This document shows positions 5,565-31,280 of a stretch of 32,952 bases of DNA, in pieces (position 1 is the first letter of the stretch; each line of letters begins with the position of its first letter). Origin of the DNA: Muribaculaceae bacterium (GTDB taxonomy: Bacteria; Bacteroidota; Bacteroidia; Bacteroidales; Muribaculaceae); assembly GCA_024400935.1 (NCBI GenBank), contig JAKSLZ010000023.1, positions 1 to 32,952 of the forward strand, written 5' to 3'. The position numbers and the translations under genes are program-made. Under the pieces are notes generated by a model. That model made no database searches. It saw nothing but the letters and a program-made list of their open reading frames with translations, and was not told the DNA's origin.

Positions 5565-5918
5565 ATGGATAACGACAGCTTCTATTCCATCGACCGACTC
5601 ATGGAGTTCGGCATGGGCATGGCGATGGCCCGCCAGATGATAGGCATCATGAACCAAACCATGGCACAGATGCAGGTGCCCGGCTCTATGGCTACAATAC
5701 CTCAGCCGCAAACACCCCCCATCCACGTGAGCCTTGACGGACAGGCCGTGGGACCGCTCACCGAGACAGAGTTTGCTCGTCTAGTGACAGAGCGCAAGGT
5801 CAACAAGGACACCCTGGTGTGGACTCCCGGCATGCTCAACTGGCAGCCGCTGGAGCAAGTGCCCAGTGTGCTCAAAATTGTAGCTATGGCCCCTCCCCCA
5901 CTCCCCACTAACATGTAA
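5565..5918 (+). CDS. Small GYF_2-domain protein
   Basis: A 117-residue protein. The N-terminal 45 residues are Met-rich (MEFGMGMAMARQMIGIMNQT), and the rest is a GYF_2/DUF4339 domain (about 51-107: IHVSLDGQAVGPLTETEFAR, then LVWTPGMLNWQPLEQVP). It resembles the C-terminal domain of the preceding SPFH protein, with the same VW-x2-GM-x2-W core, and lies 61 bp downstream on the same strand, so joint function is likely. There is no signal peptide or clear membrane helix. Its stop codon at 5916-5918 lies inside the left end of an inserted miniature element. Without the insert the reading frame would end PTND-stop instead of PTNM-stop. Function beyond partner binding is unknown. Confidence 0.8.
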   Translation: MDNDSFYSIDRLMEFGMGMAMARQMIGIMNQTMAQMQVPGSMATIPQPQTPPIHVSLDGQAVGPLTETEFARLVTERKVNKDTLVWTPGMLNWQPLEQVPSVLKIVAMAPPPLPTNM

Positions 5919-6196
5919 CTATACACCAACGGGGTAATCTCGCGCAGACCTCACTGGGACATTAAGGACTGAAAGAACCGAGCGAAGCGAGCTCAATGGA
6001 GTGAGTAGCGGTAAGTGGAAGAAGCCCGTGCCGCGACCAGTGAATCTCCATTAAACCAAATAATTAATATAAAATTTGATGTTCTTATAGTCTAAAATTT
6101 AATTTTAATTTCTTTTAATTTCTGTCAGTCCACCCTCAGGGGTGTGACCCGTAAAATCCGCGCAGGGACTATGCAAATAAAAGAGTGAATAGTTAC
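5915..6196. mobile_element. MITE-like element E1 (282 bp)
   Basis: Left end GTAACTATACACCAACG (from 5915) and right end GAATAGTTAC (to 6196) are inverted repeats shared with elements at 21186 and 30765. Imperfect 9-bp direct repeats flank it: CACTAACAT (5906-5914) and CACTAACGA (6197-6205). Inside are a CGCGCAGA segment near each end, an 87-bp module (5969-6055) shared with the 30.8-kb element and bounded by AATGGAG (5995-6001) and CTCCATT (6046-6052), then an AT-rich stretch ending TTTCTGTCAGTCC (to about 6133). There is no reading frame for a transposase, so movement would need one in trans. It fills the whole 304-bp gap before the next gene. Confidence 0.8.
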
Positions 6197-6222
6197 CACT
6201 AACGATTAAAAGACCAAGAATA

Positions 6223-6573
6223 ATGAAAATCAATATCTTCATGGCCTGCATCAGCGTGTTGCTGGCGGCCCTCATTGGATACCTGGCGTTTACTGTTGCC
6301 CGTGGCGATGCCTATGACACCGTGTGCGGCATCACCAGCGGACTGTGCTTCCTGTCGGCATTGCTACCCGTCATGGGCTTGTCGCTTGAATCAGGACGCC
6401 TCAAGGCCAATGTAAACATCCTGGCGATACTTTTCTTCGTCGTCTTCCTTGTGAGCCACTTCGCATTTGCAGCATTTGGCGTCAAGATGCCTTACTACAT
6501 CATCATCAACGGCATCCTGCTGCTCATCTACCTTGCTGTCATCTACAAGATGGCTTCAATCAAGGACGTATAA
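6223..6573 (+). CDS. Small membrane protein of unknown function, four predicted helices
   Basis: A 116-residue hydrophobic protein with about four transmembrane segments (roughly residues 2-25, 32-53, 63-87 and 91-111) and short polar loops. I recognise no family. The start ATG at 6223 fits the AT-rich leader. It sits between the GYF_2 gene and the two zinc-ribbon paralogues, and the upstream gap is occupied by element E1. Without that insert the previous stop would be 13 bp away, so it most likely belongs to the same operon as a membrane partner of the SPFH/GYF_2 proteins. The link is inference from position. Confidence 0.7.
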   Translation: MKINIFMACISVLLAALIGYLAFTVARGDAYDTVCGITSGLCFLSALLPVMGLSLESGRLKANVNILAILFFVVFLVSHFAFAAFGVKMPYYIIINGILLLIYLAVIYKMASIKDV

Positions 6574-6609
6574 ACAACTGTTTCTGAAACCAAAAAAAAT
6601 TACAACAAT

Positions 6610-7446
6610 ATGTTTTCTAAAGAACTTGAAGAGATAATCGATGCGGCACTAGCCGATGGTGTATTAACTGATACTGAGCGCCGTGTGCTGCACAAGCGTG
6701 CCGCAGCCGAGGGTGTGGACCCCGACGAACTTGACGTGGTGGTCGAAGGCCGACTGGCCAAGATGAAACGCGAGTCAGACTGGCTGCGCCCCGCTCCCCC
6801 CAAGATTCCCACCCAGGTGAAATATGGCAACGTGCTCACCTGCCCCAGCTGTGGTGCACAGGTCAAGGCCGGTGCCGCACGGTGCGAGGAGTGCGGTTAT
6901 GCATTCACTAACATCTCAGCCACAAACTCTGCACGCGAGCTGCAAAGGAAGATCGAGGAATTTGACCGCCGCAACACTGAGCGCCTGGGCAACCAATCTA
7001 GCGGCTTGATGGACATGTTCAATGGCATGAATGCGCTTAACAAACAGAGGCAAGACCAGCAAGCAGCCAAGAGCAAGTTGAACATGATTTCAACTTTCCC
7101 AGTGCCCAACTCCCGCGCCGACCTGCTTGACCTGATGTCGATGGTCGAAGTACAGATGGACGTTGCAGGACCACATGACGGAATCAACATGACACAGCAG
7201 GAGAACATGAGCTACGGTTACTGGCTGCTGTTCAGCAACTGTATCAACAAGGCACGCATCAGCTTTGCCAACGACCCCGACTTTGCACATTTCTTTGCAC
7301 GCTATGACGAGGAAGTCCAGAAGACCAAAGGCCTAATGGGATGGTGGCGCACACGTGGCAAACTCGCTAAATTTGGCTGTGGCTACGTTATTGTTGTGAT
7401 AGCTTTATTTTTACTCCTGGGAATCCTTGCCGCTATAGCCGGATAA
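6610..7446 (+). CDS. TerB-like helical / zinc-ribbon / membrane-anchored protein
   Basis: A 278-residue protein. Residues 1-52 are acidic-helical with a DGVLTDTERRVLHKRA segment reminiscent of TerB-like domains. A four-Cys zinc ribbon follows at C78/C81/C92/C95 (CPSCG and CEECG). A helical linker (105-145) leads to a region conserved in its neighbour (about 158-240: STFPVPNSRADLLDLMSM, then WLLFSNCINKARISF), and a single C-terminal helix (about 255-277) anchors it, probably with the bulk in the cytoplasm. It is a tandem paralogue of the next gene (12-bp gap) and lacks that gene's WG-repeat tail. Function is unknown; the TerB comparison rests on motif likeness only. Confidence 0.8.
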   Translation: MFSKELEEIIDAALADGVLTDTERRVLHKRAAAEGVDPDELDVVVEGRLAKMKRESDWLRPAPPKIPTQVKYGNVLTCPSCGAQVKAGAARCEECGYAFTNISATNSARELQRKIEEFDRRNTERLGNQSSGLMDMFNGMNALNKQRQDQQAAKSKLNMISTFPVPNSRADLLDLMSMVEVQMDVAGPHDGINMTQQENMSYGYWLLFSNCINKARISFANDPDFAHFFARYDEEVQKTKGLMGWWRTRGKLAKFGCGYVIVVIALFLLLGILAAIAG

Positions 7447-7458
7447 ATATACTGAGAC

Positions 7459-8787
7459 ATGTTTTCTAAAGAATTAGAAGAGATTATTGATGCGGCGATT
7501 GCCGATGGCGTACTGAGCGATGTGGAACGTCGAGTGCTGCACAAGCGCGCGGCGGCCGAAGGCATTGACCCCGACGAACTCGACGTGGTGGTTGAAGGCC
7601 GTCTGGCCAAGCTTAACCGCAAACAGGCATTCAACAAGGCTCCCGCGCCACCGCCCATGGCAGGCATTGCCAACATGAAGATGGGCAATGTGCTCACCTG
7701 CCCCAGCTGCGGAGCACAGGTCAAGGCGGGCTCGGCCGTGTGTGCCGAGTGCGGTTATGCATTCACTAACATCCAGGCCAGCAATGCGGCTCGTGAGCTG
7801 CAGCGCAAGCTCGACGAGTATAACCGCCGGCAAGAGGCATCAGCAGGATCTTTTGCTAACTATTTTTCGCTGAACCAAAACATGTACAAGCCCAAGGTAG
7901 ACTTGCTGGCCACTTTCCCCGTACCCAACTCGCGCCTCGACCTGCTTGACCTGCTGTCGATGAGCGAGGTGCAGATGGACGCATCCGCGCCACACAACGG
8001 CATGACGTCTGACCGCACCGAGAACCTGGGCTATGGCTTCTGGCTGTTGTATAACAACTGCATCAACAAGGCACGCATCAGCTTTAATGACGACCCCGAC
8101 TTTGCACACTACTTTGCACGCTATGAGCAGGAAGTCAAAAAGACAAAGGGGTTCATGGGCTGGTGGCGCTCAGTGCCCCGTTCGGCCAAGGCAATGATAT
8201 GGATGGTGATTATCTACGCCATATTAGGAGGCGGCGTGTGGGGATTCATAAGCCACATGAGCAACAAGAGCAAGTCCAGAAGAGCTACGACCGAATACAC
8301 CTATACAGCTCCCGACAACATGACTACCGACAATGCAGTTTCTGACGAGGAAACCGACGGCGACAGCGATGGCACCACAGCCGACGGCGACAGCGATGGC
8401 ACCACAGCCGACAGCGACGAGAGCGACCTGCCCAAGGGGTCAGAGAGCATGAAGGAGAGGCTCAAGGCCAAGTATGACTATGTCTACAGCGAGAGTGACG
8501 GCTTGTACAAGGTGGAAAAAGGCAACAAGAAAGGCTATTGCGATGCCGCTACCGGCAAGGAAGTGGTTCCGTGCAAGTATGACTACATCTACTCATGGGA
8601 CGACGACGGCATGGCCAAGGTAGAGATAGACAACAAGAAAGGCTACATCAACAAGCAGGGCAAGGAAGTGGTTCCATGCGAGTATGACTACATCTACTCA
8701 TGGGACGGCGGACTGGCCAAGGTTGAAAAGGGCGACAAGAAAGGCTACATCAACAAGCAAGGCAAGCTGGTATCGCCTTTAGAGTAA
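7459..8787 (+). CDS. TerB-like / zinc-ribbon / membrane protein with C-terminal WG repeats
   Basis: A 442-residue paralogue of the preceding protein. It has the same N-terminal helical domain (1-52), zinc ribbon (C81/C84/C96/C99), conserved middle region (about 150-230) and membrane helix (about 234-256). After the helix come an acidic linker (280-325) with a perfect DGDSDGTTA duplication (27-bp DNA repeat, 8356-8382 and 8383-8409) and about three WG-type repeats (326-442; KVEKGNKKGY, KVEIDNKKGYINKQG, KVEKGDKKGYINKQG). The last two repeat units are nearly identical in DNA at a 105-bp spacing, a sign of recent expansion. The single helix places the zinc ribbon and WG repeats on opposite sides, suggesting a sensor that spans the membrane. 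That is inference. It is the last gene before a terminator. Confidence 0.8.
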   Translation: MFSKELEEIIDAAIADGVLSDVERRVLHKRAAAEGIDPDELDVVVEGRLAKLNRKQAFNKAPAPPPMAGIANMKMGNVLTCPSCGAQVKAGSAVCAECGYAFTNIQASNAARELQRKLDEYNRRQEASAGSFANYFSLNQNMYKPKVDLLATFPVPNSRLDLLDLLSMSEVQMDASAPHNGMTSDRTENLGYGFWLLYNNCINKARISFNDDPDFAHYFARYEQEVKKTKGFMGWWRSVPRSAKAMIWMVIIYAILGGGVWGFISHMSNKSKSRRATTEYTYTAPDNMTTDNAVSDEETDGDSDGTTADGDSDGTTADSDESDLPKGSESMKERLKAKYDYVYSESDGLYKVEKGNKKGYCDAATGKEVVPCKYDYIYSWDDDGMAKVEIDNKKGYINKQGKEVVPCEYDYIYSWDGGLAKVEKGDKKGYINKQGKLVSPLE

Positions 8788-8805
8788 CCCCCTTTTAACG
8801 AAAAA

Positions 8806-8840
8806 AATTGCCCCGCGGCCACACGGCTTGCGGGGCAATT
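8806..8840. terminator. Strong bidirectional-looking terminator
   Basis: AATTGCCCCGC (8806-8816) and GCGGGGCAATT (8830-8840) form a perfect 11-bp stem with a 13-nt loop. It is preceded by an A run and followed shortly by TTTTT, 18 bp after the WG-repeat gene stop. It closes the SPFH locus and separates it from rpoN. Confidence 0.85.
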
Positions 8841-8933
8841 GCTTTTTACACCATGCACTATCAAACCGCACAAAGTGACACACTTCTTAAAAGAAATCAG
8901 TGCAGGACAATGCAATAATAATAAAATTATTAT

Positions 8934-8941
8934 TACCTTTG
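8934..8941 (+). promoter_or_regulatory. -7 box for rpoN
   Basis: TACCTTTG (8934-8941) matches TAnnTTTG, 52 bp before the rpoN ATG. No clear -33 TTTG is present at the usual distance. Confidence 0.6.
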
Positions 8942-8993
8942 CATTCTATTACAACTTTTACATCTGTATATACAATCGTTAAATCAAATTATC

Positions 8994-10448
8994 ATGGCAG
9001 GACAAGGAACAGGACAGATTCAAGTTCAACAGCAAGAAAAAGACCCCATAAGGGCCTTGAACCGCATTGTGGGCGAATTGCTCGACGGCAACGAAGAAGA
9101 CGCCTTGAAATATGTCCAGAACGAAGTTGAACGCAACATGGGTCTTGAGCAGAAAAACAGCGGGGACCCAGAGGCAGAACACAAAGACACACAAACTGAA
9201 CACAACGACAAGAGGGACGACTCTTATGACTACGGCATACCTCTGGCTACAGGGGGGTCACGCGGCGGCAGCGGATATGTATGGGGGTCTAACGACAGCG
9301 AGACCGACGAAACCATCATCGAGCACATGATGCCGCAAATCAACGAAAGCTCACTCAACGAGAAACAACGCCTCATAGCCACATACATCGTGGGCAACCT
9401 CGACAACTGGGGATACCTGACACGCAAGACCGACGAGATAGCCGACGACATGTCGTTCAACGATGCGATAATCACTGAGACAAGCGAGGTGGAAGAGGTG
9501 CTCAAGGTGGTGCAGGACATGGAGCCCGCAGGCATTGCGGCACGCGACATCCCCGAGTGCCTGCTGCTGCAGCTCAAGCAACGCAACACGCCTTACACCA
9601 AGGATGCCATCGAGATTGTGACCAAGCACTTCAAGGACCTGGCCAACAACCGCCACGACCGCATTGCGGCCAGCATGGGCATCACGGTAGAGGATGTGAG
9701 CACAATCATCACAAAAGAAATCCACAAGCTCGACCCCAAGCCCGGAGCCGCCTATGCCGGGACATCGGCTCGTCCCATCTCGCCCACGTTCTACATCATG
9801 GTCGAGGGTAATGACGTGCGCCTTGAAATCCCCAACAAAATCCCTGACCTATATGTCTCCAAGTCTTATGCGGCCGAACTGGCAAGACTCAACAACAAAG
9901 ATAAGCTCTCGGCCAACGAGACCAAGGAGAAAAGCGCATTACAAGACAGCGTCAACAAGGCCAACCTGCTCATCAAGGCCCTGCAGATGAGGCAAGAGAC
10001 CCTAACGCAGACCATGATGGCCATCATTGACATGCAACGCGAGTATTTCCTCAACGACGGTGACGATGAGTTCCTGGTTCCCATGACGCTCAAAGACCTG
10101 CAGGAAAAGACCGGACGCGACCAGTCGGTGCTGTCGCGTGCCACCAGCAACAAATATGCGAGCACCCCCTGGGGTACCATAGCGTTGCGCGACCTGTTCT
10201 CTGAAGGCATAGAATATACTGACAGTGACGGCAACAAGCACATCGTGTCGACAACAGTGGTCAAGAACCGCCTGCGCAACATCATCAGCGAGGAGGACAA
10301 GCAACACCCCCTGAGCGACATGAAACTGTGCGAAGCACTCAACGAGATGGGCTTCAACATTGCGCGCCGCACCGTGGCTAAGTACCGCGAGGAGATGAAA
10401 ATCAACCCCGCCAAAGTAAGAAAAGAACATTTCAAAACCAACGATTAA
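8994..10448 (+). CDS. rpoN: RNA polymerase sigma-54 factor
   Basis: A 484-residue sigma-54. The core-binding region is recognisable (about 110-270; LNEKQRLIATYIVGNLDNWG, AAMG-type helix, LDPKPG). The DNA-binding region has FLVPMTLKDLQEKTG, QSVLSRATSNKYASTPWGTI and the RpoN box ARRTVAKYRE at 457-466. Region I (residues 1-55), which normally has a Leu/Gln-rich LxxSPQ-type pattern and contacts the AAA+ activator, is unusual here: DPIRALNRIVGELLDGNEED replaces it, although the ending VERNMGLEQ keeps the familiar N-x-x-LE. An acidic, Gln-poor linker follows (56-105). A sigma-54 activator with an intact GAFTGA loop lies at 28140, so the system is probably working. The gene is followed after 18 bp by a membrane-protein gene. 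Confidence 0.93.
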   Translation: MAGQGTGQIQVQQQEKDPIRALNRIVGELLDGNEEDALKYVQNEVERNMGLEQKNSGDPEAEHKDTQTEHNDKRDDSYDYGIPLATGGSRGGSGYVWGSNDSETDETIIEHMMPQINESSLNEKQRLIATYIVGNLDNWGYLTRKTDEIADDMSFNDAIITETSEVEEVLKVVQDMEPAGIAARDIPECLLLQLKQRNTPYTKDAIEIVTKHFKDLANNRHDRIAASMGITVEDVSTIITKEIHKLDPKPGAAYAGTSARPISPTFYIMVEGNDVRLEIPNKIPDLYVSKSYAAELARLNNKDKLSANETKEKSALQDSVNKANLLIKALQMRQETLTQTMMAIIDMQREYFLNDGDDEFLVPMTLKDLQEKTGRDQSVLSRATSNKYASTPWGTIALRDLFSEGIEYTDSDGNKHIVSTTVVKNRLRNIISEEDKQHPLSDMKLCEALNEMGFNIARRTVAKYREEMKINPAKVRKEHFKTND

Positions 10449-10466
10449 ACAACGACTGCAACCATT

Positions 10467-11108
10467 ATGGCTAGCCGATTCAAACAATTCAAACTGTTGA
10501 CCGCACTGTCGAGGCTCATCTCGTCAATGCTCAACCCCATGCTTGCGCCCACTTATGGCACAATCCTCGTGCTGTGGACATCAGTGTTGTGTTCTGAGTC
10601 AACAGGCACCCGCACCACTATAGTGATAGTGATGATGGGTCTCACATGCATCCTCCCCGTGACATGCATAGGTCTGATGCACCACTACGGCTTCATCAGC
10701 GACAAGCGGCTCAGGAACCCCAAGGAACGCACCATACCCTACATCTTTGCGATAGTGTGCTATGTGATTGCAACATTCTACATCAACAGCATTCACGCCC
10801 CGGCATGGTTCACCATGTTTGCCGCTGGCGGCACCCTGACACTGCTCATAACCACCCTCGTCAACTTCAAGTGGAAGATAAGCGCCCACATGGGGGGCAT
10901 GGGTGGCATCGTGGCATTGCTGTACCAGATGCACGTTGAGGGTATCAGCGCCTTTGACCTGTTTTGGGTATTGTGCGCAGCCATCATGCTGTCGGGCCTG
11001 CTAGGCTCAGCACGCATGCTGCTCAAGTGCCACACGGCACCGCAAGTGATTCTGGGCTTTGCCAACGGCTATGCCTGCGTCACCCTAGCAATGAAACTCC
11101 TGGGCTAA
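10467..11108 (+). CDS. PAP2-like integral membrane protein (degenerate phosphatase motifs)
   Basis: A 213-residue protein with about six hydrophobic segments. It shows remnants of the PAP2 phosphatase signature: R-L-R-N-P-K-E-R (about 81-88), K-I-S-A-H-M-G-G (about 137-144, in place of PSGH) and SARMLLKCHTAPQVILG (about 177-193, in place of SR-x5-H-x3-D). The final aspartate is absent, so catalysis by the standard mechanism is doubtful. Such proteins in Bacteroidota are usually annotated as hypothetical or PAP2-family. It is 18 bp downstream of rpoN and likely co-transcribed. A lipid-phosphate role is a guess. Confidence 0.65.
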   Translation: MASRFKQFKLLTALSRLISSMLNPMLAPTYGTILVLWTSVLCSESTGTRTTIVIVMMGLTCILPVTCIGLMHHYGFISDKRLRNPKERTIPYIFAIVCYVIATFYINSIHAPAWFTMFAAGGTLTLLITTLVNFKWKISAHMGGMGGIVALLYQMHVEGISAFDLFWVLCAAIMLSGLLGSARMLLKCHTAPQVILGFANGYACVTLAMKLLG

Positions 11109-11121
11109 CCCCCCTACAAAG

Positions 11122-11301
11122 GGCGCCACAGCGCCGCTCCGAAAAGCAAAGCGCTCTGAAAAGGCACGCAGTGCCGCTCCGAAAAGCAAAGCGCTCTGAA
11201 AAGGCGCACAGCGCCGCTCCGAAAAGCAAAGCGCTCTGAAAAGGGCGCCAGCCCGCTCTGAAAAGCGAAGCGCTCCGAAAAGGCGCCACAGCGCCGCTCT
11301 T
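11122..11301. repeat. 40-bp tandem array with conserved hairpins, 4.5 units
   Basis: Units start at 11122 (41 bp), 11163 (40), 11203 (40), 11243 (39) and a partial unit at 11282-11301. Each begins with a small inverted repeat and continues with a CTCCGAAAAGCAAAGCGCTC-type stretch. The hairpin arms differ between units but stay complementary: GGCGC/GCGCC (units 1, 3, 5), GGCAC/GTGCC (unit 2) and GGGC/GCCC (unit 4). The array fills the gap between the PAP2-like gene and purE and ends 22 bp before the purE start, so it may be carried in the purE leader RNA. Confidence 0.9.
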
Positions 11302-11323
11302 AATAACTAAAAAAACAAAAATA

Positions 11324-11830
11324 ATGACTCCACTCGTTAGCATCATCATGGGCAGCACAAGCGACATGCCCGTTATGGAAAAAGCTTGTAACTGGTTGAA
11401 CGACCACAAAATTCCCTTTGAAGTAAACGCCCTCTCGGCACACCGCACACCGCAGCAGGTCGAGGAGTTTGCCCGCACTGCCCAGAGTCGCGGCATCAAG
11501 GTCATCATCGCAGCAGCCGGCATGGCCGCAGCCCTGCCCGGTGTCATCGCCGCAAGCACAGCTCTGCCCGTGATAGGCGTACCCATCAAGGGTATGCTCG
11601 ACGGACTTGACGCCATGCTCAGCATCATCCAGATGCCTCCCGGCATTCCCGTGGCTACAGTGGGTATCAACGGCGCAATGAATGCCGCCATACTCGCTGC
11701 ACAGATCCTCGCCGGCTCTTGCCCCGAGGCAGCAGCTGCAGTCAACGAGCACCGAGCTTCGCTCAGCGCTAAAATCGAAAAAGCTAACCAGGACTTGGCA
11801 CAAATCAAATATGACTACAAAACAAACTAA
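11324..11830 (+). CDS. purE: N5-carboxyaminoimidazole ribonucleotide mutase
   Basis: This 168-residue protein is a full-length class I Pur[17 protein letters not shown] at the N-terminus (phosphate-binding GSxSD), [11 protein letters not shown] (catalytic His region) and [15 protein letters not shown]. It moves the carboxyl group of N5-CAIR to give CAIR in de novo purine synthesis, in the cytoplasm. The ATG at 11324 follows an A-rich leader. The 3' end overlaps the next gene, ispG, by 20 bp, so the two are translationally linked although the pathways differ. No PurK gene is in view. Confidence 0.95.
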
Positions 11831-13544: not shown

Positions 13545-13548
13545 TTTA

Positions 13549-13636
13549 TATAAAGGTTTAAAGGTTTAAAGGTTTAAAGGTTTAAAGGTTGAAAAGTTTA
13601 ATCGATTAATCGTTTAAGAGTTTAAGAGTTTAAAAG
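13549..13636. repeat. TTTAANNG octamer array (11 units)
   Basis: Eleven octamers in unbroken register: TATAAAGG, four TTTAAAGG, TTGAAAAG, TTTAATCG, ATTAATCG, two TTTAAGAG and TTTAAAAG. The array begins 4 bp after the ispG stop and occupies most of the 142-bp gap to the next gene. Same repeat as at 1870-1933, with three off-consensus units. Confidence 0.85.
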
Positions 13637-13686
13637 GTTTATGCATTAACGGGGTAAACCTGTTGCAAACTATCATGTAAATACTT

Positions 13687-15806: not shown

Positions 15807-15828
15807 CTCATACAGCTCAAGGTAACAG

Positions 15829-15864
15829 ATTAGGCTGCGTCTCGGTGTTGAGATGCAGCCTAAT
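15829..15864. terminator. Terminator-like hairpin, copy 1
   Basis: A 15-bp stem (ATTAGGCTGCGTCTC, 15829-15843; complement 15850-15864) with a 6-nt loop GGTGTT and one G-T wobble, 23 bp after the Sel1 stop; a weak T run follows. A 44-bp copy (15824-15867) recurs at 16204-16247 with a single difference. Confidence 0.8.
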
Positions 15865-15909
15865 TTAGTGCTTATTGGTGCTTTTGTTGGTCGATTAAAA
15901 ACAATAGTG

Positions 15910-16184: not shown

Positions 16185-16208
16185 ACAACATTTGATTCCA
16201 AGAAACAG

Positions 16209-16244
16209 ATTAGGCTGCGTCTCGGTGTTGAGACGCAGCCTAAT
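16209..16244. terminator. Terminator-like hairpin, copy 2 (between convergent genes)
   Basis: The same hairpin as at 15829-15864 but with a perfect stem (ATTAGGCTGCGTCTC / GAGACGCAGCCTAAT). It lies 24 bp after the small membrane gene on plus and 23 bp after the esterase gene on minus, so it can end transcription from both sides. Confidence 0.8.
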
Positions 16245-16267
16245 TTATGCGGGGTCAGCAAGTGGAG

Positions 16268-19818: not shown

Positions 19819-19824
19819 GCGTTA

Positions 19825-21098: not shown

Positions 21099-21185
21099 TG
21101 TATTGCACAAAAAACCTACTTTTTTTATTCACTACAGCCTCCAAATTCAACAAAAAATGTTTTTTGGGACGCCCTTTTTCTACCG

Positions 21186-21369
21186 GTAACTATACACCAA
21201 TGTAGATAATCTCGCGCAGAACTCGCAGACAACGCAGATAAAAGCGGAACAATTTATTTGCATAATATTAGGTGGCGAAATAATTTCTTCTGATTTTGAG
21301 AAATTTCTTCCAGTTATTCTGCGAGTTCTGCGAGTTCTGCGCGAGATCTTACCATTGCTGAATAATTAC
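21186..21369. mobile_element. MITE-like element E2 (184 bp)
   Basis: Left end GTAACTATACACCAATG (from 21186) and right end CATTGCTGAATAATTAC (to 21369) are inverted repeats. The match continues inward with ATCTCGCGCAGAACTCGCAG at both ends, giving an arm of about 40 bp. Imperfect 9-bp flanking repeats are present: TTTCTACCG (21177-21185) and TCTCTACCG (21370-21378). There is no reading frame inside. It lies in the 404-bp gap upstream of CASDH and downstream of the Sel1 gene. The rest of that gap (21099-21176) is AT-rich and shows nothing I can name. Confidence 0.8.
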
Positions 21370-21403
21370 TCTCTACCGGTCCTTGGGGGCGATGCCGGTG
21401 TGG

Positions 21404-21423: not shown

Positions 21424-21425
21424 TA

Positions 21426-22424: not shown

Positions 22425-22445
22425 CTAAGTGTTACATTTAGTGGG

Positions 22446-23840: not shown

Positions 23841-23864
23841 AGGTCACTTGGTTTGGCGCGTTGC

Positions 23865-24647: not shown

Positions 24648-24677
24648 GTGTATCGTCTTCGGTTACTAATTAAGATG

Positions 24678-24685
24678 CAAAGATA
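24678..24685 (-). promoter_or_regulatory. -7 box for the rsmA-mgtE run
   Basis: On the minus strand TATCTTTG (24685-24678) matches TAnnTTTG, 31 bp before the rsmA start. The upstream region is AT-rich without a clear TTTG. Confidence 0.6.
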
Positions 24686-24734
24686 CAATTTTTACCTTAA
24701 ATTTAAAAGGATTTGGCCCTAAAACACCCGTCAC

Positions 24735-24892
24735 GACACTATACGGCAATCAGTCACTACGTTTTAGGCTGTGAGAACATTTTTTTGACTAAATTTCTTT
24801 AGTTTAAAGTCCCCGCGCAGATCTCACGAGTTCCACGGATTTTATTTTTAGACTAAAAGAACATAATTTTATTTTAATTTCTGTCAGTCCTT
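24735..24892. mobile_element. Probable decayed relic of the MITE-like family (E4)
   Basis: GACACTATACGGCAATC (24735-24751) resembles the left terminus. CCGCGCAGATCTCACGAGTT (from about 24813) resembles the CGCGCAGA segment of E1 and E2. GACTAAAAGAACAT (24851-24864) and TTTTAATTTCTGTCAGTCC (ending 24890) resemble interior parts of E1 and E3. No right terminus is recognisable. It fills most of the 300-bp gap between rsmA and the YbhN-like gene. Also present are a 6-bp hairpin (ACTAAA/TTTAGT, near 24790-24805) and a wide 8-bp inverted pair CCTAAAAC/GTTTTAGG (24718-24725, 24761-24768). Confidence 0.45.
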
Positions 24893-24914
24893 AATATATT
24901 TCATCAAAAATTAT

Positions 24915-24922
24915 TACCTTTG
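24915..24922 (+). promoter_or_regulatory. -7 box for the YbhN-like / lptE run
   Basis: TACCTTTG (24915-24922) matches TAnnTTTG, 25 bp before the ATG at 24948. Relic E4 ends about 23 bp upstream, so the promoter is directly next to repeat DNA. Confidence 0.65.
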
Positions 24923-24947
24923 CAAATTGATATTTAAAGCAAGAACG

Positions 24948-25958
24948 ATGAAAAAAGTATTATCAGCTATACTCAAGTATGTGGTGCCCCTGATCATAGG
25001 CGTGGGACTGTGCTACATACTCTATAACGGCGTTGACCTCGAGGCCGCCAAGAGCACCCTGACCAACGACGTGAACTACCTGTGGTTCATCCCCGTGCTG
25101 TGTGTCAGCACCATGAGCCACGTGTTTCGTGCCCTGCGCTGGCGCCTGCAGTTGCGTGCCATCGATGTCAAGACTCCGCTCCACCCCATCGTGTGCTCAA
25201 TCTTTGGCACCTATGCCGTGAACCTGGTGTTCCCGCGCCTGGGCGAGGTGTGGCGCTGCGGCTACATTGCACAGCGCGAGAAGGCTCCGTTCACACAGGT
25301 CCTGGGCTCGATGGTGGCCGACCGCCTGAGCGACACCATCACCGTGCTGGCTCTCACCGTGGGCACCTTCTTCCTGGCCCAAGATGCCTTCTATAGCTTC
25401 CTCGACACTTATCCCCAGGTCAAGGACGGCCTGGTGGGCATGGTCACCTCGTGGAAGGTGTGGGCTGCTGGCGTTGTGGGCGTTGCCGCCCTCGTGTGGC
25501 TGTTCACCAGCAAGACCGAGAACAAGCTGGTGCTCAAGGTCAAGGACATGGTCAAGGGACTGTGGGACGGCTTCGCTGCCATCATGCACATGGAGGGCAA
25601 GTGGTGGTTCCTCTTCTACACCGTGTGCATTTGGGGCTGCTACTTCCTGCAGCTCTACATCGCCGCACAGGCATTCACATTCACCAGCGGCCTGAGCATG
25701 CTCGCCGTGCTGGTGCTCTTTGTGCTCTCAAGCATAGGCATGGGCGTGCCCACCAACGGCGGACTGGGAGCATGGCACATGGCCATCATCTTCGGCCTGT
25801 CGCTCTATGGCGTGGGCGTGTTCTCGGCCACACACCCCGACACCCAGGCGTCGGCATTTGCAATGCTCGTGTGGGGCATCCAGACTCTGCTGCTCATCGT
25901 GCTGGGCATCTATGCTTATGTCTTCATCGCCCTTGACAAGAAGAAATCAACCCACTAA
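24948..25958 (+). CDS. YbhN/UPF0104-type membrane protein (flippase-like domain)
   Basis: A 336-residue polytopic protein with about eight transmembrane helices. The signature of the lysylphosphatidylglycerol-synthase membrane-domain family is present: VFPRLGEVWRCGYIAQREKA, then VLGSMVADRLSDTITVLAL and GMGVPTNGGLGAWHMA. Such proteins are thought to move or modify lipids; the catalytic MprF aminoacyl domain is absent. The start at 24948 (ATG, MKKVLSAILKYV) is preferred to an in-frame TTG at 24927, which would lie within a few bases of the promoter. lptE follows after 5 bp, consistent with an envelope role. Confidence 0.85.
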   Translation: MKKVLSAILKYVVPLIIGVGLCYILYNGVDLEAAKSTLTNDVNYLWFIPVLCVSTMSHVFRALRWRLQLRAIDVKTPLHPIVCSIFGTYAVNLVFPRLGEVWRCGYIAQREKAPFTQVLGSMVADRLSDTITVLALTVGTFFLAQDAFYSFLDTYPQVKDGLVGMVTSWKVWAAGVVGVAALVWLFTSKTENKLVLKVKDMVKGLWDGFAAIMHMEGKWWFLFYTVCIWGCYFLQLYIAAQAFTFTSGLSMLAVLVLFVLSSIGMGVPTNGGLGAWHMAIIFGLSLYGVGVFSATHPDTQASAFAMLVWGIQTLLLIVLGIYAYVFIALDKKKSTH

Positions 25959-25963
25959 GCACA

Positions 25964-26485
25964 ATGACGATGAAACGCCTCAGCATCATATTACTTGTAG
26001 CCATCATGACCTGCATCAACCAGGCCTGCCTGCCCAAGTACACCTTTAACGGCGCATCTATCGACTACACCACTTACCGCAACATCTCCTTCGGCGAGTT
26101 CCCCATCAGGGCGGCACTGGTGTACCCGCCGCTGCAGCAGCTCTTTGAGAACAAGATGCTGGACATGATACAGCAGCAAACGCGCCTGCGGGTGGTTGAC
26201 AACGTGGCCAGCGACCTGCGCATGGAGGGCGAGATCACAGGATACAACCTCACGCCGCAGTCGGTGGGCGAAGACGCTTACGCCAGCCAGACACGTCTCA
26301 CCATCACCGTGAGAGTGAGGTACATCAACAACAAGAACCCCAACCTGTCTAAGGACCAGAGCTTCTCGGCCTACCGCGACTTCTCCAGCAGCGAGATGCT
26401 CACCGACGTGCAGGACGAGCTCTGCAACCAGATATGCAAAGACCTCACTGACCTCATCTTCAACGCCACCCTGGGCGACTGGTAA
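25964..26485 (+). CDS. lptE: LPS-assembly lipoprotein LptE-like
   Basis: A 173-residue protein with a lipoprotein signal (Cys22 in INQACLPK). The fold matches bacteroidal LptE: YTFNGASIDYTTYRNISFGE, LQQLFENKMLDMIQQQTRLR, DLRMEGEITGYNLTP, and a C-terminal helix DELCNQICKDLTDLIFNATL. In the outer membrane LptE plugs LptD during LPS insertion. Two start codons (25964 and 25970) differ by two residues; either gives a good signal peptide. It lies 5 bp after the YbhN-like gene and upstream of the sigma-54 activator and secG, an arrangement I recall from other Bacteroidales. Confidence 0.85.
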   Translation: MTMKRLSIILLVAIMTCINQACLPKYTFNGASIDYTTYRNISFGEFPIRAALVYPPLQQLFENKMLDMIQQQTRLRVVDNVASDLRMEGEITGYNLTPQSVGEDAYASQTRLTITVRVRYINNKNPNLSKDQSFSAYRDFSSSEMLTDVQDELCNQICKDLTDLIFNATLGDW

Positions 26486-26572
26486 GGCCTGCACAAGGAT
26501 GGGATGACACCCCGAGAGAATTTAAAGGTGCACCGGCACCCATAAAGACATAAAAAATATATTTTTCACAAC

Positions 26573-27109
26573 ATGAACGACGAATTTAACGACCACTTCA
26601 TGGAAAAGCCCGAGCCCCGCAAAGAGCCCGTGCACAAGGAAACTCCTCAAGAACGCGAAGAACGCGAGATAGAAGAGTCCATCATCTCGCGCCGACACGA
26701 CACCATGCGGTGGTCAATACTGGGAGTCATCGTGCTGCTGGCACTGGGCATCGCCACATGGACATGGATGCACTATTACAAGCCCTACAGCCAGAGCGTA
26801 GAGAAGGGCTGGGTAATGACCGTGAGCAGCGAGGGCTCGCTGTTCAAGACCATCGAGTGCAAGATGCTCACACAAGACTATGTCCTTGACACCGTCAAGG
26901 TTAAGTGGACCAAGGATACAGTGCTGGTAGACGGATGCAACTTTGAAGCCACCATCAGCAACGATAGCCTGGCACGCGAAGCCGTGAAGTGGAAAGCATC
27001 GGGCAAACGCGTGGCCGTGTACTACGACGAGTACAGCGGACGACTGCCATGGCGAGGCAACTCCACACGCATCGTCACCGACATACAGCTCGACACGCTG
27101 GCCAACTGA
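26573..27109 (+). CDS. Single-pass membrane protein of unknown function
   Basis: A 178-residue protein. The N-terminal 45 residues are highly charged (EPRKEPVHKETPQEREEREI), one transmembrane helix lies at about 46-66, and the remainder is a small, probably beta-rich, extracytoplasmic domain (GWVMTVSSEGSLFKTIECKM, DGCNFEATISNDSLAREAVK, VAVYYDEYSGRLPWRGNSTR). I recognise no family. It lies 87 bp after lptE and is followed by a strong hairpin, so it closes that transcription unit. The gap holds only a weak GGTGC/GCACC inverted pair. Confidence 0.7.
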   Translation: MNDEFNDHFMEKPEPRKEPVHKETPQEREEREIEESIISRRHDTMRWSILGVIVLLALGIATWTWMHYYKPYSQSVEKGWVMTVSSEGSLFKTIECKMLTQDYVLDTVKVKWTKDTVLVDGCNFEATISNDSLAREAVKWKASGKRVAVYYDEYSGRLPWRGNSTRIVTDIQLDTLAN

Positions 27110-27144
27110 CAGCGCCATCGCCACACACATCACTGGCAATCATC

Positions 27145-27182
27145 ACAGCACCCCGCTCACTTAATGCCGAGCGGGGTGCTGT
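27145..27182. terminator. Strong hairpin terminator
   Basis: ACAGCACCCCGCTC (27145-27158) and GAGCGGGGTGCTGT (27169-27182) form a perfect 14-bp stem with a 10-nt loop. No T tract follows directly. It is the most stable hairpin in this half of the window. Confidence 0.75.
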
Positions 27183-27270
27183 CATATCCCAAAACTCTTA
27201 AAAACAGCTCTATAAGATTTTTCAGCAAAAATAAATATGACAAAATGTCGGTTTTTTGTTATTTTATTTG

Positions 27271-27278
27271 TAACTTTG
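27271..27278 (+). promoter_or_regulatory. -7 box for the acyltransferase operon
   Basis: TAACTTTG (27271-27278) matches TAnnTTTG, 25 bp before the ATG at 27304. No clear -33 element is visible at 19-21 bp. Confidence 0.6.
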
Positions 27279-27303
27279 CGTTTCATTTCAACAACTATCA
27301 CTG

Positions 27304-28152
27304 ATGAACGAAGAAAATAACAACGAAATAAAGAAAACAGTCCTTGACTATGACGACCTGCGCAAGATGGTGCCGTTCTTTGACGGTAAACCCAAACTCG
27401 TGAACACCCTGATGCGATGGCTCGACGTGGACAAGGTCAACTGGATACACGAGCACAACTGCGCCACTCCGGGAGTGCCCTTCACCACCGGACTGCTCAA
27501 CGACCTGGGGGCAACCATCCACTTCAACAGCACCGAGGTGCTCGACAACCTGCCCGAGGGCGGATTCATCACCGTGAGCAACCACCCCTTTGGCGCCCTT
27601 GACGGCATCATGCTCATCAACATCCTGGGCCAGAAACGCCCCGACGTGAAGGTGATGGTCAACATGATCCTCAACTACATCAGCGCCATGCGCCCCAACT
27701 TCATCGCCGTGGACGCGCTGCAGAGCAACGACCCCGCCAAGCGCGCCGTGTCGATGCGCGGCGTGGCAACCGCCATCAAGCACGTGCGCGACGGCCACCC
27801 GCTGGCGTTCTTCCCTGCCGGAGCAGTGTCTAAGCTCAACAACCACCTTGAGCTCGAGGACCGCACATGGCAGCCCACCGTGATGCGCATCATCCAGAAG
27901 TGCAAAGTACCCGTCATCCCCATCTTCTTCCACGGCAGCAACAGCACGTGGTTCAACATCCTGGGACGCATCGACTGGCGACTGCGCACCCTCAGACTGC
28001 CCGCCGAGGTGTTCCGCCGCAAGGACTACAACTTCAATGTGAGCATTGGCCAGCCCATCATGCCCGATGTGCAGGCACAGTACTCTACTCCCGAGGAACT
28101 TGGAGAATTCTTGAAACAACAAACATATAATTTGAAGTCATGCCAGAAATAA
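27304..28152 (+). CDS. 1-acyl-glycerol-phosphate acyltransferase-like protein
   Basis: A 282-residue protein of the lysophospholipid acyltransferase superfamily. The catalytic block is VSNHPFGALDG (residues 91-101; His94 and Asp100, the longer H-x5-D spacing seen in the hemolysin/OlsB-like branch). The substrate motif AFFPAGAVS (about 168-176) replaces FPEGT. No signal peptide or strong membrane helix is present, so it is probably peripheral. It likely transfers an acyl group to a lipid or ornithine-type acceptor; the substrate is not clear. Its 3' end overlaps the sigma-54 activator gene by 13 bp, indicating co-transcription. Confidence 0.85.
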   Translation: MNEENNNEIKKTVLDYDDLRKMVPFFDGKPKLVNTLMRWLDVDKVNWIHEHNCATPGVPFTTGLLNDLGATIHFNSTEVLDNLPEGGFITVSNHPFGALDGIMLINILGQKRPDVKVMVNMILNYISAMRPNFIAVDALQSNDPAKRAVSMRGVATAIKHVRDGHPLAFFPAGAVSKLNNHLELEDRTWQPTVMRIIQKCKVPVIPIFFHGSNSTWFNILGRIDWRLRTLRLPAEVFRRKDYNFNVSIGQPIMPDVQAQYSTPEELGEFLKQQTYNLKSCQK

Positions 28153-29441
28153 CACAACGAGACATCCAGAATGTCAAGGCACAGCACAAGATCATCGGTG
28201 CATCACGCATCCTTGACATGGCCATCGAGCGAGCAATGCGCGTCGCTCCGGTAAACCTGTCGGTGCTCATCACCGGCGAGAGCGGTGTGGGCAAGGACAT
28301 CGTGCCCCGCATCATCCACAACGTGAGCCCCCGCAAGACTCGCAACTACTTTGCAGTCAACTGCGGAGCTTTCCCCGACGGCACCATCGACAGTAACCTC
28401 TTTGGTCACGTCAAGGGAGCCTTCACGGGCGCCGACCGCGACCACGACGGCTACTTCCAGGTGGCCGACGGCGGCACGATATTTCTCGACGAGGTGGCCG
28501 AGATGCCCATGTCGACCCAGGTGAGACTGCTGCGTGTGCTCGAGAACGGCGAGTTCATCAAGGTGGGTTCGTCACAGGTTCAGAAAACTAACGTGAGAGT
28601 GGTAGCGGCCACTAACAAGGACCTGCTGCAAGCCATCAGCGAGGGCAAGTTCCGCGAGGACCTCTACTATCGCCTCTCAACGGTGCAGATACACATGCCG
28701 TCGCTCAAGGAGCGTGGCAGCGACGACATCCTGCTGCTGTCGCGTTTCTTTGCACGCAACTTTGCCGACAACTACCGCCGCCCCGCCATCGAGTTCACTA
28801 ACGACGCCCGCAAGATGCTGGCGGCCTATGAGTGGCCCGGCAACGTGCGTCAGCTCAAGAACGTCATCGAGCAGGTGTCGCTGTTCTCTGACAGCAACCA
28901 GGTAGACGCCGCCTTCCTGCGCGACTACATGCCGGCGGCTGTCAACACCGCGACCGGCGAGACTCTGCCCGCAACCATGGGGGCAAGCACGTTTGACTAC
29001 ACCCACGACCGCAACATCATCTTCAGCATCATAGGCCAGCTCACAGCCGAGATCAACCAGCTCAAGCAGTTCATCAACGAGCGCCCGGCACAAATGGAAA
29101 CCGCTGCCTATCACGGCTTCAACGCCCTGAACCATGATTCAGCGGCAACGATACCCATCGCGCACAAGACGGGCGGCTCGTTCTATGCACAGGAGTTCGA
29201 CTCCCCGGCTCCAAGCCACGCACATGCCCCTGCCGGCGCACACAAGGACGTGTATGACGACATCGTCGTGGACGTGAACATGGTCAAGACCCTCGACGAG
29301 ACCGAGCGTGAGACCATTGCCGAGGCCCTCAAGCGCAACAAGGGCAAGCGCAAGCGCACTGCCGACGAGCTCAAAATCTCAGAGCGCACGCTCTATCGCA
29401 AAATAAAACAGTATAACCTCGAAAAAACCGGGACAAGATAA
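28140..29441 (+). CDS. Sigma-54-dependent transcriptional activator without a receiver domain
   Basis: A 433-residue protein. The AAA+ domain starts almost at the N-terminus: Walker A GESGVGKD (46-53), GAFTGA loop (93-98), Walker B GGTIFLDEVAEM (111-122), FREDLYYRL (171-179) and WPGNVRQL (232-239). A variable linker (260-390) leads to a Fis-type helix-turn-helix (about 395-425; RKRTADELKISERTLYRKIK). There is no CheY, GAF or PAS domain, so activity must be controlled through partners, expression or the linker. It acts with RpoN, whose gene is at 8994. It overlaps the acyltransferase gene, and the TPR-like gene follows after 2 bp. Targets are not evident here. Confidence 0.92.
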   Translation: MPEITQRDIQNVKAQHKIIGASRILDMAIERAMRVAPVNLSVLITGESGVGKDIVPRIIHNVSPRKTRNYFAVNCGAFPDGTIDSNLFGHVKGAFTGADRDHDGYFQVADGGTIFLDEVAEMPMSTQVRLLRVLENGEFIKVGSSQVQKTNVRVVAATNKDLLQAISEGKFREDLYYRLSTVQIHMPSLKERGSDDILLLSRFFARNFADNYRRPAIEFTNDARKMLAAYEWPGNVRQLKNVIEQVSLFSDSNQVDAAFLRDYMPAAVNTATGETLPATMGASTFDYTHDRNIIFSIIGQLTAEINQLKQFINERPAQMETAAYHGFNALNHDSAATIPIAHKTGGSFYAQEFDSPAPSHAHAPAGAHKDVYDDIVVDVNMVKTLDETERETIAEALKRNKGKRKRTADELKISERTLYRKIKQYNLEKTGTR

Positions 29442-29443
29442 CA

Positions 29444-30202
29444 ATGGAAAACTTAGTTGACGGCATCAGCAACATGGTGAAACACGGGGGCACCACACGA
29501 GAGTGGCTCGACAGCATGATGGACGAGCACCCTTACTTCACAACCCCCATACTGCTATACCTCAAGGAGCACGGCATTGAGGGCAACCAAGACCTGCTGG
29601 CACGACTCGCCATCGCCAGCCCCGACCGCAAGGCACTGGCACTGCAGCTGGGCGAGGACGTGGAGCGCTTTGCCACATTCTACACCCCCGAGCCCGAACC
29701 CAAGACACCCGACACCGACGACGCCATAGACCGCTTCCTCACTAACTTCGGGTCGACTAACTCCAAGGAGGTCGAGGCCATCAACAACGCTATCTTCAAC
29801 CCCACCCCCGACTATGCCGACATACTGGCCGCCGAGGCCGAGAAAGACCCCGCAGCAATGCAGCAGCCACAGTCTGAGCAAGACAAGCTCATCAACGACT
29901 TCATTGCCGACAGCATGCAGCGAGAAAAAGCCGTGGCACAGGCACCGTCGCAACCACACATCGAGGAAAAAGAAAAAGCCGAGATTGCACACGAGAGCAT
30001 CGACGAGCCCGAGCACATCGACGACTCCATGCTGCAGGAATCTCTGGCAAAATCCTACATTTCTAAGCGCAAATATGCCCAGGCTCTCGAAATACTGGAG
30101 AACATAAATTTGCGTTTTCCAGAAAAAAGTATTTACTTTGCAGACCAAATTCGCTATTTGCGCAAATTGGTATTGAACGAAACAATAACAAATAACAAAT
30201 AA
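29444..30202 (+). CDS. TPR-like protein of unknown function
   Basis: A 252-residue, mostly acidic protein without signal peptide. The middle (about 75-190) is low-complexity and Glu/Pro/Asp-rich. The last 60 residues form one or two TPR-like helices (LAKSYISKRKYAQALEILEN, then INLRFPEKSIYFADQIRYLR), a form common at the ends of bacteroidal adaptor proteins. The final 40 codons are visibly more AT-rich than the body and contain a promoter-like sequence for secG. It sits between the sigma-54 activator and secG, an order I recall in other Bacteroidales. Role unknown. Confidence 0.7.
   Translation: MENLVDGISNMVKHGGTTREWLDSMMDEHPYFTTPILLYLKEHGIEGNQDLLARLAIASPDRKALALQLGEDVERFATFYTPEPEPKTPDTDDAIDRFLTNFGSTNSKEVEAINNAIFNPTPDYADILAAEAEKDPAAMQQPQSEQDKLINDFIADSMQREKAVAQAPSQPHIEEKEKAEIAHESIDEPEHIDDSMLQESLAKSYISKRKYAQALEILENINLRFPEKSIYFADQIRYLRKLVLNETITNNK
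30109..30140 (+). promoter_or_regulatory. Possible secG promoter inside the preceding gene
   Basis: TTTG (30109-30112), a 20-bp spacer and TTACTTTG (30133-30140, one mismatch to TAnnTTTG) match the -33/-7 layout, about 70 bp before the secG ATG. The sequence lies within the 3' end of the TPR-like gene, where base composition turns AT-rich. Confidence 0.5.
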
Positions 30203-30212
30203 AACAACTAAA

Positions 30213-30638
30213 ATGTACACAGTACTAGCAATTCTTATTTCTATCGCATCTATCCTCATGATAGGTGTAGTTCTCATCCAGAAATCTAAGGGTGGTGGCC
30301 TCGCTGCCAACGTCAACAACTATAACCAGTTCATGGGCGTGCGCAAGACTACTGACTTTGTAGAAAAAGCAACCTGGGGACTCGCAATTTTCATCTGCGT
30401 TCTCTCTATCGCATCTGCTTTTGTATCAGCTCCTACAATGATCCAGGGCGCTCCCCAGATCAAGAAGCTCCCCACTGCTGAGGCTCCCGCTGCTATCCCC
30501 ACTGCTGGCCAGGAACAGGCTGCTCCCGCTGCCGCTACCGAAGCTCCTGCTCAGGCTACTGAGGCTCCCGCTACCGAGGCTGCAGCTCCTGCTGCTGAGA
30601 CTCCCGCAGAGGCTCCTGCCGAGGCACCCGCTAAGTAA
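30213..30638 (+). CDS. secG: Protein translocase subunit SecG with Ala/Pro-rich tail
   Basis: A 141-residue protein. The first 75 residues are a standard SecG: helix MYTVLAILISIASILMIGVV, the loop KSKGGGLAANVNNYNQFMGV, then a second helix (about 53-72). From about residue 85 an Ala/Pro/Glu-rich tail (roughly 55 residues) replaces the usual short end; tails of this kind occur in Bacteroidota SecG. SecG assists SecYEG and SecA in export across the inner membrane. Codon use is richer in T-ending codons than its neighbours, consistent with high expression. Confidence 0.93.
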   Translation: MYTVLAILISIASILMIGVVLIQKSKGGGLAANVNNYNQFMGVRKTTDFVEKATWGLAIFICVLSIASAFVSAPTMIQGAPQIKKLPTAEAPAAIPTAGQEQAAPAAATEAPAQATEAPATEAAAPAAETPAEAPAEAPAK

Positions 30639-30673
30639 TCACTGTTTAGCACATTTTTTACAATAAATACACA

Positions 30674-30723
30674 GCACGCACACTGTGCCCCTTGACACGT
30701 TTTTAGGGGTTATGTGGGCGTGC
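30674..30723 (+). terminator. Bipartite hairpin after secG
   Basis: GCACGC (30674-30679) pairs with GCGTGC (30718-30723), with CAC/GTG extending it past one mismatch. An inner pair, CCCCT (30688-30692) and AGGGG (30705-30709), stacks inside. It lies 36 bp after the secG stop and before element E3. Confidence 0.6.
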
Positions 30724-30764
30724 ATTTTGAGTTTATATAGCAAAATTCGTATTTTTATATTTTT

Positions 30765-31280
30765 TTAACAATACACCATTTCAGTGGCACTCTTACAGCA
30801 ATAGGGACACCCTTGCCCCGATTTAAAGACTGAAAGAAATCTTTTAGCTAAAAGAACCGAAAGGGCTGAAAGAACCGAGCGAAGCGAGCTCAATGGAGTG
30901 AGCTGCGGTAAGTGGGCGAAGCTCGTGCCGCGACCAGCGAACCTCCATTAAATTAAAATAATTAAAATGATTTTTTTGCTCTTTAAAGTCTGAAAAGAAC
31001 ACGCAACAAATAATTTAATTTTAATTTCTTTTAATTTCTGTCAGTCCTAACACATAGCCTGTCAGTCCCAACACATAGTCTGTCAGTCCTAAAATTAATT
31101 TTAATTTCTTATAATTTCTGTCAGTCCTAACACATAGCCTGTCAGACTAAAAAATTAATTTTAATTTCTTTTAATTTCTGTCAGTTCTAAACACATAGTC
31201 TGTCAGTCCCAACATATAGTCTGTCAGTTCTAAACACATAGTCTGTCAGTCCTAAATATAGAACATTGCTGAATAGTTAC
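30765..31280. mobile_element. MITE-like element E3 (516 bp, longest copy)
   Basis: The left end TTAACAATACACCAT (from 30765) is a diverged form of the E1/E2 terminus. The right end CATTGCTGAATAGTTAC (to 31280) matches E2 in 16 of 17 positions. Inside are the 87-bp module (30866-30952; 80/87 identical to E1 5969-6055), AT-rich TTTAATTTTAATTTC stretches and a tandem array of CTGTCAG motifs. No 9-bp flanking repeat is evident and the left end is degenerate, so this may be the oldest copy. It accounts for most of the 665-bp gap between secG and the cyclase gene. Confidence 0.7.
31038..31249. repeat. CTGTCAG motif array, nine copies
   Basis: CTGTCAG starts at 31038, 31059, 31080, 31118, 31139, 31178, 31200, 31221 and 31243. 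The intervals are 21, 21, 38, 21, 39, 22, 21 and 22 bp. Most units read CTGTCAGTCCTAACACATAG, and the longer intervals contain an extra TTAATTTTAATTTC stretch. The array forms the right part of E3. Confidence 0.88.

Follow-up and report, generated by a model that had tools for sequence, protein, structure and literature searches.

The window analysed here is the whole of a 32,952-nt contig (C57) from the draft genome of a Muribaculaceae bacterium (G000, hereafter the source genome), whose assembly holds 2.84 Mb in 140 contigs and is estimated to be 77% complete. Three of its intergenic gaps hold gene-less elements that open and close with inverted copies of one short sequence (Table 1). An earlier note on this DNA had described them as elements resembling miniature inverted-repeat transposable elements (MITEs), with shared ends and variable interiors, and all three lie where it had placed them. 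Elements 1 and 2 both begin with an exact GTAACTATACACCA and end with GAATAGTTAC and GAATAATTAC, respectively; element 3 begins with TTAACAATACACCA and again ends with GAATAGTTAC. The imperfect 9-bp flanking repeats reported for two of the elements are confirmed. Element 1 lies between CACTAACAT (5906–5914) and CACTAACGA (6197–6205), which are alike at 7/9 positions, and element 2 between TTTCTACCG (21177–21185) and TCTCTACCG (21370–21378), alike at 8/9. The flanks of element 3 agree at only 3/9 positions. Element 1 also supplies the end of a neighbouring open reading frame (ORF): the TAA stop (5916–5918) of the ORF at 5565–5918 comes from the GTAAC end of the element.

Table 1. Gene-less elements and stand-alone modules in the window
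Feature	Position	Strand	Description
Element 1	5915..6196	+	282 bp, no gene; IS66-type ends at 5915–5930 and 6181–6196
Element 2	21186..21369	+	184 bp, no gene; ends plus arms at 21210–21239 and 21319–21347
Element 3	30765..31280	+	516 bp, no gene; degenerate left end, no target duplication
Stand-alone interior modules	24810..24899	+	CCGCGCAGATCTCACGAG... to TTTAATTTCTGTCAGTCC; no recognisable IS66-type ends

Copy number and target duplications

The three elements belong to a large family, as the earlier note had supposed from three copies in one contig. Allowing one mismatch, GTAACTATWCASCAAT has 122 matches in the source genome and its reversed-word control has none; allowing two, GTAACTATACACCA has 156 matches in the same 2.84 Mb versus 21 for the reversed word. 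The ends form at least 61 inward-facing pairs, 136–669 bp long, of which 17 are near-identical copies of 204 bp. Further pairs occur in other genomes of the genus: at least three in G199, 11 in G200, five in G217 and four in G207. Pairs were counted solely within the loci that we retrieved, so all of these totals are lower bounds. In a draw of 198 genomes across the family, GTAACTATACACCAAT at ≤1 mismatch is found in the source genome and as a single match in each of two others, and in none of the 15 congeners in that draw. A looser search of the genus recovers 57 + 69 matches in G200 (control, 3 + 5), and a degenerate end word reveals the copies in G217 and G207. Several G200 contigs (L156, L158, L161, L178 and other loci) end ∼35–120 bp from the outer end of an element, which shows that the repeats break the G200 assembly.

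Many pairs in the source genome are bounded by short direct repeats, as expected of target duplications. A 9-bp duplication is exact at 14 of the 61 pairs and present at ≤1 mismatch at 21, and eight other pairs have an exact 8-bp duplication; in all, 29/61 pairs have a duplication of 8 or 9 bp at ≤1 mismatch. Mispaired flanks give five (9 bp) and three (8 bp) such matches in 3660, and duplications of 6, 7, 10, 11 or 12 bp are found at no more than two of the 61 pairs. The search for paired ends with duplications that the earlier note had proposed therefore yields many pairs, with duplications of 8–9 bp. In G217 and G207, 6/9 pairs have an 8-bp and 1/9 a 9-bp duplication at ≤1 mismatch.

IS66 transposase elements with matching ends

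A candidate source of the transposase is found in a congener. G217 carries a 1678-bp element (L210:3248–4925) that begins with GTAACTATTCACCGAT and reads GTATCTATTCAGCGAT at its other-strand end. Its single ORF, of 527 aa, is an IS66 transposase (PF03050, E = 2e-37; NF033517, 234 bits against a cut-off of 180). The same genome contains a 111-bp MITE (L214) with an exact 8-bp duplication, and both of its 16-bp ends are identical (16/16) to those of the 1678-bp element, including the unusual GTATC variant. Further elements with such ends occur in G204 (1673 bp, with the gene split across two frames) and at G217:C114 (1693 bp, with a stop in the gene), and end fragments of such IS66 elements are found in G268, G146 and G217. 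Similar ends are also known from an element that has been seen to transpose: according to the available part of PMC12898284, ISDge4 of Deinococcus geothermalis, a member of the ISBst12 group, has the ends GTGACTACTCAGCA/GTAACTGCTCAGCA, its only gene encodes a transposase of 449 aa, and its duplication measures 8 bp. Two Paracoccus IS66 elements likewise have 8-bp duplications (PMC3281130, available part).

A protein search of the genus matches 7/101 genomes, among them G245 and G253 weakly (25–29% identity, N-terminal part). A PF03050 profile search of 10 genomes matches four, one of them below the cut-off, and gives no match in the 77%-complete G000 or in G199, G200, G207, G198 and G146. Likewise, no transposase was recognised by eye among the ORFs (up to five of ≥120 aa per locus) at 14 end-bearing loci of the source genome. 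Either the assembly lacks the partner transposase of the source genome, or that enzyme has been lost or belongs to a family other than IS66. The earlier note had proposed that the elements are mobilised in trans and that comparison with the ends of insertion sequences (ISs) would reveal the transposase. An IS66 element with matching ends does exist in congeners, notably the transposase element of G217, and this supports the proposal; the source assembly itself has no IS66 transposase by PF03050.

An uninserted site in congeners

The neighbours of element 3 are a secG-like ORF and an ORF for an M28-type peptidase (here and below, the names secG, M28 peptidase, Sel1, truA and speA reflect by-eye recognition from translations). 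We retrieved 29 congener loci for the peptidase and aligned the four with the best-matching upstream regions. The insert is absent from all four (G201, G234, G200 and G199), which supplies the empty site in relatives that the earlier note had asked about. In three of the four the uninserted site reads TTTTTTAAC. The host may therefore have contributed the TTAAC of element 3, and the left boundary of the element is uncertain by ∼5 bp. The region of element 2 offers no clean empty site, because G199, with ∼21 bp between the matched neighbours, also lacks the Sel1-type gene and G200 carries another insert nearby.

Interiors and stacked copies

The interiors are modular. Merging near-identical copies reduces the 61 elements to 40 non-redundant ones with 80 arms, the segments just inside the ends. 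Under a permissive classification (single linkage at score 40), one arm class accounts for 55/80 arms; it is represented in 36/40 elements, and in 19 of them on both sides. Source-genome arms, with the 204-bp copies excluded, show a 9-bp period (0.412 at lag 9); other lags mostly give 0.21–0.26, but lags 2 and 11 give 0.367 and 0.352. Within like arms the centres differ, and include AATCATATGATT, ACTGACAGAAATTAAAAG-type hairpins, GGCTGAAAGCC and CGGTCTTCAACCGC hairpins, and GAGCGAAGCGAGCT hairpins. Element 1 has one common-class arm together with GAGCGAAGCGAGCT and ...TTTAATTTCTGTCAGTC modules. Element 2 has the common-class arm on both sides, as TCTCGCGCAGAACTCGCAGA... and its inverse, and is predicted to fold into a strong hairpin. 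Element 3 has it on neither side and contains a tandem array of TCTGTCAGTCCTAACACATAG with a period of ∼21 bp at 31037–31255; of the three, it is the one in which tandem repeats were sought. Some modules occur on their own as well, as at L050 and in the window (Table 1). In G217 and G207 the ends of the nine pairs surround different sequence, in several cases including CTTCCCCTCCCC hairpins, and a 9-bp period is absent. The statement that interiors differ far more than ends thus holds for the centres, but the common arm class in most elements indicates that interiors are not freely variable.

Some copies are stacked. Scanning the loci for the end of one element followed within 0–14 bp by the start of another identifies nine places, eight in the source genome and one in G217, and the spacer is 8 or 9 bp in all nine. 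At 7/8 source-genome places an outer flank recurs as the spacer, either identically or with a single difference or shift; the later copy thus appears to have inserted at the duplication of the first. For example, at L062 a 204-bp and a 184-bp copy with unlike interiors are framed by ataacacat, ataacacat and atgacacat. At L013, actatcttt stands before and between a 204-bp and a 160-bp copy, with no match after them. At L065 the arrangement is different: a 385-bp and a 204-bp copy have tggtttacg at both outer flanks and gctgcattg as spacer, and the pair is best read as having moved as one unit. A deletion within such a paired unit would join the halves of two copies. The modular or chimeric build suggested at the outset is supported by unlike centres in like arms, adjacent unlike copies and one pair that apparently moved together. 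In a search of the open-licence literature, of which we read only few papers, we found no account of such stacked, composite MITEs or of arms common to MITEs and GxxExxY genes (see next section). The available part of a MITE review (PMC10969869) uses none of the terms IS66, Bacteroid, chimeric or mosaic.

GxxExxY genes and shared arms

The interior arms of the MITEs resemble the flanks of GxxExxY genes in both G000 and G200. These genes, identified by TIGR04256 and PF13366, encode a PD-(D/E)XK protein for which, to our knowledge, no activity or function has been described. Inverted arms are widespread around them. Of 48 GxxExxY loci given to the inverted-flank scoring, 45 were scored (three have no recognised ORF), alongside 29 control genes. 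The median inverted-repeat score between flanks is 39, versus 18 both for mispaired flanks and for control genes; 18/45 loci lie above the 99th percentile for mispaired flanks (44.2) and 33/45, on our own count, above the 95th (29.05), versus 1/29 control genes. Loci L307–L335, which lie in Bacteroidia outside the genus, often have GxxExxY genes with inverted arms such as CACAGATTACACAGAT or CACAGAGGTCACAGAG, and 17 of these 29 exceed the 95th percentile of mispaired flanks (own count). By eye, a GxxExxY gene sits between truA and speA in G000 (L186), G199 (L185) and G200 (L184); it is apparently one gene at one position in three species, yet its inverted arms differ in each. The 9-bp period is barely visible in 120-nt GxxExxY flanks (0.322 versus 0.300 for control genes), so the link to the MITEs rests on the inverted-repeat and arm scores.

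Comparison of flanks with MITE interiors of the same genome (best/weaker flank) gives 60/50 for L195, 61/54 for L184 and 52/48 for L190. L186 matches on one flank only (52/25), and L191, in the source genome, does not match (29/28). Thus 4/5 loci of the source genome or G200 that were scored match mobile-repeat interiors, one of the four on a single flank, and the match is partly non-specific; L192, L194, L197 and L199–L202 were left out of this scoring. Among 27 class-wide GxxExxY loci the maxima are 35/32 against G000 interiors and 45/40 against G200 interiors. The 23 window genes used as a control reach 63 on one flank once, with both flanks at most 32 (G000) or 25 (G200). L190 matches the interiors of G200 but fails against G000 (25/23), L184 does equally well against both, and G000 interiors are also matched by L188 (G198; 41/40) and L187 (G217; 46/33), indicating that the genome specificity of the arm match is partial.

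A search with the arms returns 59 exact matches and 129 in all (control, 2). We took 30 of the exact matches as loci: 24 lie just inside recognisable IS66-type ends, two lie inside degenerate ends, two form the arm pair of the GxxExxY gene at G000:C2, and two are neither. Random positions pass the same arm-inside-end check in 21/1500 cases. IS66-type ends bracket the GxxExxY gene itself in 0/19 loci. Our search of the open-licence literature found nothing on PDDEXK_3 with inverted repeats, nor arm-like words as text. A further PF13366 gene, at L200 (G000:C13:25752–26105), is flanked by long similar repeats around TTTTTCATCACGGGCAATCTTT, and a MITE of the element 2 copy type lies ∼130 bp upstream of another TTTTTCATCACGGGCAATCTTT-type repeat; this arrangement is unlike the 9-bp-period arms.

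Other features of the window

Two near-identical copies of the hairpin AACAGATTAGGCTGCGTCTCGGTGTTGAGATGCAGCCTAATTT, perhaps terminators, lie ∼380 bp apart at 15828–15872 and 16207–16250 with a short ORF between them. Stand-alone hairpin repeats (GACGACACCCCCGTGTCGTCC and CCAGGGCAACGCCCTGG) occupy 32432–32648 and also occur inside some elements (L007, L083). The ORFs at 6610–7446 and 7459–8787 adjoin, and their N-terminal halves, which both begin with MFSKELEEIIDAA, are close paralogues, indicating a tandem duplication.

Interpretation and alternatives

We interpret the three gaps as non-autonomous MITEs of the IS66 family, ISBst12 type, with a probability of roughly 0.83. This reading is carried by the common ends, the target duplications, the copy number, the uninserted site, the congener IS66 element with like ends, and the adjacent and composite arrangements. 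An IS66-type DDE transposase acting in trans would recognise the 16-bp ends (GTAACTATACACCAAT, GTAACTATTCAGCAAT and variants) and insert the elements, making an 8- or 9-bp target duplication. Because such a transposase would need only the ends, the interior would be free to change and the centre between the arms could be replaced. A second copy could insert exactly at the flanking duplication of the first, and the two neighbours could then move jointly through their outer ends. We infer that the source-genome copies were moved by the G217 transposase or by a relative since lost, and that composite moves and deletions produced the present interiors. The family is best read as a known kind of element in a variant form, in which interiors can be exchanged, copies stack at the duplication and paired copies move together.

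Several observations weigh against this assignment. Element 3 shows no duplication, and 32/61 source-genome pairs lack one of 8 or 9 bp at ≤1 mismatch, for which age, recombination or wrong automatic pairing may be responsible. Duplications are mostly 9 bp in the source genome and mostly 8 bp in G217 and G207, and none is clear by eye at the three longest IS66 copies. The ends read CAAT in the source genome and CGAT in the G217 IS. PF03050 has no match in the MITE carriers G000, G199, G200 and G207, where other transposase families were not searched for. Finally, the MITEs did not arise from the IS66 element by simple deletion, since the two are alike only at their ends.

Some of these points would fit a transposase of another family, with the likeness to the G217 IS66 ends due to convergence or to common ancestry of the short ends alone. 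The IS256 and IS1 families also produce 8–9-bp duplications. The source assembly has no IS66 transposase, and its 9-bp majority departs from the 8 bp usual for IS66 (available parts of PMC12898284 and PMC3281130). We nonetheless consider this explanation quite unlikely, since the G217 MITE and IS66 element are identical at both 16-bp ends, down to the GTATC variant, 8-bp duplications are present in G000 too (8/61), and the mobile ISBst12-group element ISDge4 has closely similar ends in the available part of its description. Far less probable still is that the gaps are not mobile but are structured RNA genes, regulatory hairpins or terminators whose ends are alike through common descent. Elements 2 and 3 do fold clearly better as single strands than shuffled sequences (z = −7.9 and −5.1), and element 1 less so (z = −2.1, with 5/200 shuffles equally good). 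However, an Rfam search of the window gives no match at gathering score, the near-identical 204-bp copies recur at many places, the target duplications have almost empty controls, and congeners have an uninserted site.

A further proposal, drawn from sequence comparison, concerns the arms. GxxExxY proteins might recognise 9-bp-period inverted arms around their own genes, with arms and gene co-evolving in each genome; the interiors would then be gene-less arm pairs of a GxxExxY element that gained IS66 ends. Such a system could work beside an IS66 transposase. The wide occurrence of inverted arms around GxxExxY genes is consistent with this, as are the exact arm matches, mostly inside IS66-type ends and in two cases the arms of the G000:C2 gene, and the matches of L195, L184 and L190 on both flanks (weaker flank 50, 54 and 48), above the class-wide and window maxima. 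Against it, L191 is unmatched in its own genome and L186 matches on one flank; L184 matches G000 and G200 equally and L188 and L187 match G000 interiors, so the match is not strictly to the own genome. The MITEs of G217 and G207 have no 9-bp period, the ends bracket the gene nowhere among the 19 loci, and we know of no GxxExxY activity on which the proposal could build. We regard it as tentative and rather doubtful. If true, two unrelated enzymes would shape one family, the IS66 transposase moving the whole and the GxxExxY nuclease exchanging or inserting sequence at the arms or the hairpin centre, which would account for constant ends with swapped centres.

By the assignment to IS66, a family of orphan repeats is linked to a family of transposases. 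It also suggests a possible route to chimeric bacterial MITEs, by insertion at the duplication of a first copy and joint movement by the outer ends. The arms common to mobile repeats and GxxExxY genes may likewise provide a lead on GxxExxY proteins.

Comparison with known systems

In REP/RAYT systems, inverted-repeat words are dispersed through a genome and at the same time flank a single DNA-acting gene there, the RAYT gene, which encodes a Y1 transposase. The dispersed words described here may similarly flank GxxExxY genes, with a match that is partly non-specific, but GxxExxY is a PD-(D/E)XK protein rather than a Y1 transposase, and most of the sampled arm copies lie inside IS66-type ends.

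The ISBst12 group, as represented by the available description of ISDge4, resembles the present family in its type of end (GTAACTGCTCAGCA versus GTAACTATTCAGCA, 12/14), in the single transposase gene of the congener element and in the 8-bp duplications found at some of the MITEs. It differs in that the window elements have no gene, that source-genome duplications are mostly 9 bp, and that the three longest IS copies have no duplication that we could recognise.

BrickBuilt of Porphyromonas gingivalis, as described in the available part of PMC4596501, is likewise a MITE of Bacteroidales whose end pieces are constant, whose length varies and whose interior is made up of repeats, of which the tandem array of element 3 is reminiscent. 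Its ends are, however, IS5-like and of the GAGACC type, and its minisatellite has a 23-nt unit, whereas the present ends are IS66-like and of the GTAAC type and the array of element 3 has a period of ∼21. In further contrast to BrickBuilt, the interiors of the present family consist mostly of inverted arms and hairpins of several classes.

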